Shown here: positions 18,635 to 34,395 of the stretch, in pieces
How positions within the stretch are numbered: position 1 is the stretch's first letter
Layout of the letters: each line of letters opens with the position of its first letter
Source of the DNA: Halopelagius longus
GTDB lineage: Archaea; Halobacteriota; Halobacteria; Halobacteriales; Haloferacaceae
Assembly (NCBI RefSeq): GCF_900100875.1
Contig: NZ_FNKQ01000001.1
Location: forward strand, 372,001 to 436,000
DNA length: 64,000 bases
Direction: 5' to 3'
Translations under genes and position numbers: made by a program
The notes under the pieces: generated by a model
What the model was told of the DNA's origin: nothing
Database searches by the model: none
What the model saw: only the letters and a program-made list of their open reading frames with translations

Positions 18635-19546
18635 TTACGCCTCCGCGCCGGTCCCGTCGGACTCCCCGTCGGCGGCGTTCTCGTTCGTCGCCTCGGCGGC
18701 GTCGGCTATCCACTGTTCGGCCCGTTCGGGACTCACGTCGGCGGCGTCCGCCACGTCCTCGGCGCTCGCGTCCGCGAGGGCGGCGAGGGAGTCGATGCCG
18801 GCGTCCCTGAGGTCCGCGCCGTACGCCTCGCCGATGCCGCCTACCTCCGTCGGGTCGCCGGCGCTTTCGGAGGCGTCCGATTCGCTCTCGACCGTCGCCT
18901 GCGAGGGGGACGCCGCCTCCGACGTCGCCTCGGGTTCCTCGCGGCCCGTCTCTCCGGACTCGGTCGCGGGGTCGGGTTCGTGCGCTTCGGCCTCGGCGGC
19001 CTCCTCCGCGCCCCGCACCTCGACGTCGTCGGTCCCTTCGTCGGCCCCGGAGTCGAACTGCGCCGTCGCCGGTCCGTCGTCTCGTTCCGCCTCGGCGTCG
19101 CTTTCGCTCTCGGCCTCTTCCGTCTCCGCTTCGCCCTCGCCCGTCCGTCGGGCTTCCACTTCGACTTCCGACTCTACTTCGAGTTCGTCGTCGCCCTCCC
19201 GTTCGAGTTCCGTCTCCGCCTCGACGTCCACTTCCACCCCGTCGCCGGCCTCGACTTCCACCTCCGTCTCGACCTCAATCTCCGGTTCGTCTCCGCCTCC
19301 GGGTTCGCTCTCGTCGCCCGCCGCGGCGTTCGTCGCGGCGGGGCGAACGTCGGCGTCCGACGGGAGGACGAACCGGAGTTCGCCGTACGGGACGAACCCG
19401 ATGACTCGCTCCCGTTCCGCGTCCTCGAACAGGAGGACGCCCTCCTCGATGGCCTTGAAGTTCCCGCAGGCGACGGTCGGACCGTTCGCCAAGTGGACTA
19501 ACAACCGCTGTGCGCCCTCCGTCGAATCGTCGGTTTCCGATGACAT
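18635..19546 (-). CDS. Acidic protein: small beta domain, Glu-Val repeat module and HhH-like C-terminus
   Basis: A 303-residue protein in three parts. Residues about 14-62 form a compact beta-like domain (LLVHLANGPTVACGNF, VIGFVPYGELRFVLP). Residues 89-139 are an alternating Glu-hydrophobic stretch (EIEVETEVEVEA, ETELEREGDDELEVESEVEV). After an acidic linker, residues about 235-285 look like a helix-hairpin-helix pair (GGIGEAYGADLRDAGIDSLA and ADVSPERAEQWI), as in DNA-binding or protein-tethering HhH units. No signal or membrane segment. The central module is nearly duplicated in the membrane-anchored protein ending at 32441. Function unknown; the HhH end hints at nucleic-acid contact. Confidence 0.75.
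   Translation of the reverse strand: MSSETDDSTEGAQRLLVHLANGPTVACGNFKAIEEGVLLFEDAERERVIGFVPYGELRFVLPSDADVRPAATNAAAGDESEPGGGDEPEIEVETEVEVEAGDGVEVDVEAETELEREGDDELEVESEVEVEARRTGEGEAETEEAESESDAEAERDDGPATAQFDSGADEGTDDVEVRGAEEAAEAEAHEPDPATESGETGREEPEATSEAASPSQATVESESDASESAGDPTEVGGIGEAYGADLRDAGIDSLAALADASAEDVADAADVSPERAEQWIADAAEATNENAADGESDGTGAEA
19130..19282 (-). repeat. Glu-Val alternating module, copy 1
   Basis: This encodes residues 89-139 of the acidic protein. Glu alternates with Val, Leu, Ile or Ala, giving an extended strand with one charged and one hydrophobic face. About 37 of 44 aligned residues match copy 2 (32753-32887), including the non-periodic ETELEREGD and ELEVESEVEVEA. The underlying DNA is also visibly similar, so common descent or recombination is more likely than chance. 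Confidence 0.7.
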
Positions 19547-32440: not shown

Positions 32441-33295
32441 TTACTCCTCTTCTTCGGCTTCGCTCGCCGCGCCGTCTTCCTCGGTACCGTCCTCGATGGC
32501 GTCGTCGACCACGTCCTCGTCGACGTTCATCTCGCCCGGTTCCGGCGACTCCGATTCGACGTCTCCCTCGGCCAGTTCGTCTATCTCTTCGACGCTTCGT
32601 TCCTCGCCGGGGAGGTCGGCGTCCTCGTCGACTGTGCCCACGCCGTCGGTCGCCATCGTCTCGTCTCCCTCGTCTGCCTCTTCGCCGTCGGTCGCTTCCG
32701 TCTCGTCTTCGCCTTCGGCTTCTTCGGCCTCTTCGGCCTCTTCGTCGTCGTCCGTCCGTTCGGCCTCCACCTCGACTTCCGACTCGACTTCGAGTTCGTC
32801 TCCCTCACGCTCCAGTTCCGTCTCGGCTTCGACCTCCACCTCGACGCCTTCGCCGACCTCTAGCTCTATCTCCGTCTCGACCTCTATCTCCTCTTCTTCC
32901 TCCGCTTCGGCTTCGCCCTCGGTCGTCTCTCCTTCCTCCGTCGATTCGTCGGACCCGACGGCGGACATCGCCTTCCCGGGCGTCTCTGTGACCGTTTCGA
33001 CCGTCTCGCTCATCTCGTCGGCTGACGGGACCTCTGGGCCCGACCCGGCCTCCCGGGTGGCCAAGTACGCCAACGCGAGCATGCCGCCGCCCACCATGGC
33101 GGCCTTGCGGAAGAGGGACGAATCGGACGGCATCGCCTCTCCGGACGACGCTGACCCTCCGGACGTCGCCGACCGCACGGCGTCTATCACCGTGCTCGCC
33201 TCTTCGATCACCGCACTCGGCTCCTCGCTCACCGCGCTCGACTCTTCTCTCACCGGCTCTGACTGGTCTTTTCGGAAGAATGCTGTCAGACTCAT
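32441..33295 (-). CDS. Membrane-anchored acidic protein with Glu-Val repeat module
   Basis: A 284-residue protein. Residues 1-60 are polar with repeated S-A-V-x-E-E motifs. Residues about 64-80 (KAAMVGGGMLALAYLAT) are the only hydrophobic segment and probably a membrane anchor. Residues about 137-181 are the Glu-Val module (EIEVETEIELEVGEGVEVEV, ETELEREGDELEVESEVEVE), followed by 100 Asp/Glu-rich residues. The ATG at 33295 is used because the 53 in-frame residues upstream are Arg-rich. No enzyme motif. The module is shared with the HhH-containing protein at 18635-19546. Function unknown. Confidence 0.7.
   Translation of the reverse strand: MSLTAFFRKDQSEPVREESSAVSEEPSAVIEEASTVIDAVRSATSGGSASSGEAMPSDSSLFRKAAMVGGGMLALAYLATREAGSGPEVPSADEMSETVETVTETPGKAMSAVGSDESTEEGETTEGEAEAEEEEEIEVETEIELEVGEGVEVEVEAETELEREGDELEVESEVEVEAERTDDDEEAEEAEEAEGEDETEATDGEEADEGDETMATDGVGTVDEDADLPGEERSVEEIDELAEGDVESESPEPGEMNVDEDVVDDAIEDGTEEDGAASEAEEEE
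32753..32887 (-). repeat. Glu-Val alternating module, copy 2
   Basis: This encodes residues about 137-181 of the membrane-anchored acidic protein. It aligns with copy 1 at 19130-19282 with six substitutions (V/I, V/L, A/V, D/E, D/E, R/E) and one single-residue gap over about 44 residues, most of them conservative. Confidence 0.7.
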
Positions 33296-33462
33296 AACAT
33301 ACGTCGTTGTTCTCCCGCGAGGAAGTGCGTTTGGGCCCCGGTCGCTCCTCGCGTCCTCCCTCGGCGCAGTTCGGTCCGCCGCCTCCCGTTCCGCCGTCCC
33401 CGCGGACGGGCGTACCACCTCGCCTGAATTACGCCTAACTGCCCGGCGGCACATCTCGCCGC

Positions 33463-34395
33463 ATGGGAGAGACTGTTCTCGTCACCGGTTGTTCGTCGGG
33501 TATCGGCCGCGCGACTGCGCTTCGGTTCCGCGAGGCGGGGTGGACGGTGTACGCCGCCGCACGCGATACGGACGCGGACGCGGTTCGGACGCTCGAAGAC
33601 CGGGACTGTCGGGTCGTCGAACTCGACGTGACCGACGAGGCGTCGGTCGAAACGGCCGTCGGCCGCGTCTTCGAGGAGGAGGGCGGCCTCGAGTGCCTCG
33701 TCAACAACGCGGGGTACGGCCAGTTCGGCGCGGTGGAGGACGTGCCGATGGAGAAGGTGAGGCGGCAGTTCGACGTCAACACGTACGGTCCGATTCGACT
33801 GATGCGCGCCGTCCTCCCTCGGATGCGCGAACGCGGCCGCGGGACGATTATCAACGTCACGGCGGGGTTCGGCGGCCTGACGGTGCCGGGGCTGGGAATC
33901 TACACCGGTTCGAAGTTCGCGTTAGAGTCCGTCAGCGACGCACTCCGCCAAGAGACGGCCGACACCGGCGTGAACGTCGTCTGCGTCCAACCGGGGCTGG
34001 TGGCGACGCCGTTCTACGACCGCGCACTCGAAGAAGTCGAGTCGGTCGAACACACCCCGGCGTACGCCGACCTCTACCGCGCACTCGAAGAAGTCGAGTC
34101 GGTCGAACACACCCCGGCGTACGCCGACCTCTACCGCGCACTCGAATCTATCGGCGTCGTCCGCGAGGGCGGCCCCGGAATCAACCGCCCCGAACGCGTC
34201 GCCGAGACTATCGTCGCCGCCGCCACCGCCGACCGGCCGGACCCTACCTACCGAGTGGGCGCACTCGCGGCGTTCGGAACGTACGCCGCCGCCGTCGTCC
34301 GCGGGCGTCTCCGCGAGGCGGCGTCGAGGGTCGGCCTCAGAATCGCCTCGAACGGCGCGGTTCGGCGCCTCCTGCGGCGGCGACGGCGCGAGTGA
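33463..34395 (+). CDS. Short-chain dehydrogenase/reductase with internal tandem duplication
   Basis: A 310-residue classical SDR. VLVTGCSSGIGRATALRF is the NAD(P)-binding motif, LVNNAGYG the structural NNAG, and IYTGSKFALESVSDAL the active-site Tyr-x3-Lys. It oxidises or reduces an unknown alcohol or ketone. Residues 187-205 (RALEEVESVEHTPAYADLY) are repeated exactly at 206-224, in the substrate-lid region after the catalytic helix. Without the extra copy the length would be near 291. The C-terminus is basic (RRLLRRRRRE), which is odd for this proteome and may contact membrane or nucleic acid. Confidence 0.88.
   Translation: MGETVLVTGCSSGIGRATALRFREAGWTVYAAARDTDADAVRTLEDRDCRVVELDVTDEASVETAVGRVFEEEGGLECLVNNAGYGQFGAVEDVPMEKVRRQFDVNTYGPIRLMRAVLPRMRERGRGTIINVTAGFGGLTVPGLGIYTGSKFALESVSDALRQETADTGVNVVCVQPGLVATPFYDRALEEVESVEHTPAYADLYRALEEVESVEHTPAYADLYRALESIGVVREGGPGINRPERVAETIVAAATADRPDPTYRVGALAAFGTYAAAVVRGRLREAASRVGLRIASNGAVRRLLRRRRRE
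34021..34146. repeat. Perfect 57-bp tandem duplication inside the SDR gene
   Basis: Bases 34021-34077 are repeated without a mismatch at 34078-34134, followed by a 12-base start of a third copy (cgcgcactcgaa). The unit is 19 codons, so the frame is kept. The absence of any synonymous difference indicates a very recent event or an assembly artefact. Confidence 0.9.

Follow-up and report, generated by a model that had tools for sequence, protein, structure and literature searches.

Two-faced beta-strands of alternating composition are known from the Amphi-Trp domain (PF20068), which also occurs in haloarchaea, and from synthetic Glu/aliphatic beta-sheet peptides, in which strict alternation is accompanied by stacking of the aliphatic faces and favoured under charge screening. 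The sequence considered here, a module of alternating Glu and aliphatic residues (EV module), occurs in two proteins, A and B, encoded in a 64,000-nucleotide stretch of the Halopelagius longus contig NZ_FNKQ01000001.1 (the window; Table 1). It has in common with the synthetic peptides the strict acidic/aliphatic alternation over whole strands, but in place of a repetitive fibril-former it would be a genetically conserved meander within one chain, with specific turns and a middle strand that does not vary among copies. Amphi-Trp is named for a conserved tryptophan, whereas no Trp is present in any of the five module copies described below, and its profile reaches at best 11.9 bits (E 0.24) on a Halogeometricum copy against a cut-off of 27 and leaves the copy in the window's B unmatched. 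The best Pfam match of the module is DUF5666 (PF18914), which covers 39 module residues at 20.6-21.0 bits, scores 16.4 on whole A and nothing on whole B, and stays below the gathering cut-off of 27; to our knowledge, an all-Glu face is not a feature of DUF5666. HHH_5 (PF14520), of which the C-terminal domain of A is a member, is a neighbour of the module and not the module itself. With no Pfam family at cut-off and no matching NCBIfam model, the module is without a name, as a first-pass annotation made from the DNA letters had supposed, and no description of it was found in the literature searched, the coverage of which was incomplete.

Table 1. Features of the EV module and its carriers, in window coordinates.
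Feature	Position	Strand	Description
Protein A gene	18635..19546	(-)	303 aa: beta domain, EV module, acidic linker, HHH_5
EV module, protein A	19151..19282	(-)	A residues 89-132 of 303; EIEVETEVEVEA-GDG-VEVDVEAETELE-REGDD-ELEVESEVEVEA
Protein B gene	32441..33295	(-)	284 aa: short N-terminus, glycine-rich hydrophobic helix (KAAMVGGGMLALAYLAT), EV module, acidic tail, C-terminal motif
EV module, protein B	32762..32890	(-)	EIEVETEIELEV-GEG-VEVEVEAETELE-REGD-ELEVESEVEVEA
Conserved element CCCAAACGCACTTCC	33321..33335	(-)	26-40 bp upstream of B start

The two copies in the window are homologous, with 38 of 43 aligned residues identical (88%) and five substitutions and one gap within 44 residues; the substitutions rise to six if the alignment is extended through ARRT/AERT, and at the second turn B is one codon shorter than A. 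The whole proteins align with a score of 270, whereas none of 300 shuffles of the acidic part of B exceeded 185. The module alone scores 188, whereas 5000 shuffles retaining the acidic and aliphatic positions reached at most 159, and shuffles retaining the alternation only at most 90. A search of the source genome with the module as query gave no further match at E<=1 beyond A and B. The first-pass annotation had described just such a shared module, including the ELEREGD stretch, the alternation and the dissimilar flanking domains, and in this it was borne out; the span it gave, 19130-19282, does contain the module but runs past the module end at 19151 and takes in seven residues of the acidic linker. 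Judged by these alignments, the A and B modules are a real shared domain and not acidic noise.

In sequence, the module is built of three 12-residue segments separated by the turns GEG and REG(E)N, and the strict i,i+2 alternation holds along all three strands when the faces are listed from the five copies. The columns of the Glu face carry E in five of five copies with two exceptions (D/E and E/T), and none of the copies varies on the aliphatic face of the middle strand. AlphaFold2, given an alignment of the two window sequences only, places strands at 9-21, 25-38 and 41-54 (strand-block pLDDT 84-91; mean pLDDT 77.6, pTM 0.48; means of 76-78 for the five models), coinciding with the three segments and their turns. 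The module is predicted from this model, consistent with the two-faced beta-strand reading first proposed for it, to be a three-stranded antiparallel meander with one Glu and one aliphatic face, bearing in mind that any predictor tends to draw alternating sequences as beta-sheet. Strands two and three appear again in the full-length model of A at 104-117 and 121-134, with lower confidence and with the first strand missing. Fold searches with the module model gave no significant relative, the best match being SecB in Foldseek (E 0.15) and the best VIA-align Z being 4.2 (60 aligned, rmsd 6.8).

A profile search of 170 genomes of the family and 391 genomes sampled across the class, a check proposed in the first-pass annotation, returned five convincing copies rather than random acidic low-complexity regions: A and B of the source genome (G000) and a single ORF in each of three others, namely G007, the sole other genome of the same genus in the sample, and two genomes of Halogeometricum, a genus of the same family (genus g25; G074 and G083). 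All three additional ORFs are orthologs of B, with an MSLxAFFR or MSLKALFR start and a GGG-x-ALAYFATRxAGSG helix followed by the module; the gene neighbourhood of B is the same in G007 as in the window and differs in Halogeometricum. Scanning contigs with the module profile yielded 591 pattern stretches from genomes and 600 from viral sequences, none of them confirmed by tblastn, to which low-complexity masking may contribute, and a plasmid search for B gave no match. Several further matches were judged to be chance, namely a weak one in G034 (E 8e-4) to an acidic stretch of a PAS/histidine-kinase protein and those to the B N-terminus in G045, G061 and G011, where the frames are unrelated or interrupted.

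No part of B is better conserved than the module, which is under purifying selection. Identity among B orthologs is 85-98% in the module, 49-92% in the preceding stretches and 33-60% in the following ones, and dN/dS is 0.04-0.20 in the module (a rough value given 47 codons of biased composition) as against 0.43-0.78 in the N-terminal part and 0.25-1.03 in the acidic tail. Variable module DNA columns fall at 8, 5 and 31 of the 47 first, second and third codon positions, which fits the minus-strand reading frame. Between the A and B copies dN/dS is 0.06-0.25, indicating that the copy in A has likewise been kept under constraint.

B begins at 33295 with the MSLxAFFR start conserved among its orthologs and ends in the motif GEERSxEEI..EPGEMNVDE. 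Using GEERSxEEIxERAxxDVxxEPAEPGEMxVDEEV as the query for the family, we found this motif in 65 of 342 genomes of the order. Among 30 motif loci that were read, about half encode small proteins with one N-terminal hydrophobic helix and the motif but without the module, and the rest encode class III PHA synthases. These small proteins indicate that B represents a module-bearing branch of a single-membrane-helix family that is older, widespread in haloarchaea and elsewhere devoid of the module. Kyte-Doolittle hydropathy over 17 residues is 1.6-2.05 in five small proteins of the motif family and 1.25 in the window's B, and the likely membrane helix first noted in B is thus matched by a membrane helix in its family. 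The Halogeometricum B proteins have the module and lack the C-terminal motif. Pfam recognised no nucleic-acid-binding domain in B.

The string EPGEMNVDEEV of B recurs in haloarchaeal class III PHA synthases (PhaC), where it lies in a C-terminal extension directly before an HhH domain (PhaC loci L077, L079, L085 and L090-L097), and this shared motif links PhaC to the single-helix membrane protein family. No function has been assigned to the PhaC extension, and a domain similar to the HHH_5 of A has been described at the C-terminus of haloarchaeal PhaC (PMC12028471). Upstream of B, the element CCCAAACGCACTTCC is identical in the orthologs of G007 and G083, which represent two genera, and has a single match in the whole genome when up to 1 mismatch is allowed; it is probably a promoter or leader element. 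In-frame strings related to it, PNELP and THLP, are found just ahead of the start in distant genes of the B family, which suggests that such a promoter or leader element is conserved. Nearby, the SDR-like ORF at 33463-34395 contains a 57-bp perfect tandem duplication (2.2 copies; 34019-34146) that adds 19 residues in frame and looks very recent.

Protein A consists of a small beta domain (residues 14-63), the module, a disordered acidic linker of about 100 residues and an HHH_5 domain (residues 233-284) that scores 40.6 bits against a Pfam gathering score of 27 and superimposes on RadA (1pzn_A) with Z 8.9 over 61 residues (rmsd 2.7). Strands of the N-terminal domain are predicted at 15-62 (pLDDT blocks 81-95); its top Foldseek matches are nearly all Hfq, at E of 0.02-0.04, and it aligns with the small lipoproteins 2k57 and 2ra2 at Z of about 6 (52 aligned). 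This domain (window 19358-19507) has no Pfam match and no convincing PDB sequence match, but is predicted to be an Sm/Hfq-like or SH3-like barrel; A may therefore be one of a family of nucleic-acid-binding haloarchaeal proteins that combine an Sm-like domain with HhH. Homologs of A, sharing the N-terminal beta domain and mostly also the HhH domain, were found in 28 of 119 sampled genomes of the family (E<=0.01, the weakest partial). A PNPOx-like gene and an NAD-epimerase gene flank A not only in the window but also in G007, G074, G083, H. pallidum and H. limi, identifying these proteins as orthologs. Halogeometricum limi has two A-like proteins (L052 and L053), one in this conserved neighbourhood and the other elsewhere.

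The history of the module differs between its two carriers. It is absent from every other A homolog found, among them the syntenic orthologs in the three further genomes that carry B, with module scores of 22-63 in the syntenic orthologs compared with 226 in the window's A, and when the latter is aligned to A of G007 the module falls within a single large insert that separates the beta domain from the linker. This pattern points to a module native to B and gained secondarily by A, or else to its loss from the A of G007. Silent-site distances of the copy in A are 0.55 to B of G007 and 0.77 to B of its own genome, compared with 0.41 between these two B copies, and the copy in A is without the one-codon deletion seen in B of its own genome. 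The transfer would therefore not be recent; it may date from about the time the two species separated or from earlier, or have come from an unsampled relative, 47 codons being too short a stretch for a closer dating. A very recent copy from B to A by gene conversion was rejected since 14 of 40 identical residues differ in codon, dS is 0.77 and A lacks the deletion, and an assembly artefact was rejected on the same codon differences, distance and B-only deletion.

As to function, the first-pass annotation had proposed that the modules of A and B could pair and thereby tether an HhH protein to the membrane, and had suggested checking whether the carriers co-occur. The two lie about 13 kb apart in one genome, B belongs to a family with a membrane helix, the copy in A is kept at low dN/dS and such a sheet might in principle pair with each of its copies; of the four genomes with the module in B, however, three (G007, G074 and G083) have an A ortholog without it, so the retention of the module in B cannot depend on pairing with A. 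Nor are the A and B copies within the source genome closer at silent sites than B copies between genera (dS 0.77), which gives no sign of co-evolution. The tether is thus not supported as a conserved arrangement, and a heterotypic pairing that recruits the HhH protein to the membrane in the lineage of the source genome is unlikely as the explanation of the module; it may be a lineage-specific by-product, not the reason for the module's existence. The Glu lattice could instead mimic nucleic acid in A, folding onto the HhH or Sm-like domain and competing with DNA or RNA as acidic tails do elsewhere, a role to which the HHH_5 domain, the Sm/SH3-like fold and the long flexible linker would be suited. 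This would leave unexplained why the module is conserved in B, where no nucleic-acid-binding domain is recognised, and A orthologs manage without it, making such mimicry improbable.

Similarly improbable is a cation-binding or hydration surface, a carboxylate lattice that would bind K+, Mg2+ or Ca2+ at the membrane without a specific partner. Acidic beta-sheet proteins of mineral surfaces offer a functional likeness and the near-invariant Glu face in a haloarchaeal protein is what this would predict, but it does not account for the middle strand's aliphatic face, which is just as invariant. Convergent acidic low-complexity sequence with no defined structure might be suspected from the long acidic tracts of both proteins and from the weak A/B alignment outside the module as well. 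Class-keeping shuffles always fell below the real score, however, the genome holds no other match, and the contrast in selection with the equally acidic flanks of B argues against a purely compositional cause, leaving this reading very improbable.

We consider the chances about even that the module is an undescribed high-salt beta-sheet domain that works by self-association through its aliphatic face and provides an oligomerisation or docking patch for B and secondarily for A. The alternation would set about 17 Glu on one face and V, I, L, A, T and S on the other, and we infer that face-to-face self-association is most likely because a lone three-stranded sheet would be unable to bury its aliphatic face. 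Two module sheets could then pack face to face as a dimeric beta-sandwich or a higher oligomer, with molar KCl screening the Glu-Glu repulsion between modules, and in this way the module would bring about oligomerisation or docking of B, a single-pass membrane protein. Since A is without the module in three of four B carriers, the module's basic function would lie within B, most simply in self-association; an ancestral A with an Sm/SH3-like domain and HhH would have gained and kept a copy, conferring the same ability in the window's lineage. Improbable is a more elaborate version, in which a salt-dependent transferable sheet, folded only at molar KCl, spread from B to A, an Sm-like/HhH protein, and in this lineage docks both and places a nucleic-acid-binding protein at the membrane.

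The module clearly shows, as few examples do, that a sequence of almost purely two letters (Glu/aliphatic) can be conserved and transferable as a unit instead of being acidic filler of low complexity. Sequence searches mask such regions by default, and similar haloarchaeal domains may therefore be missed. As a putative association module of the amphipathic beta-sheet type, it offers a minimal testable model for folding and association dependent on molar salt.
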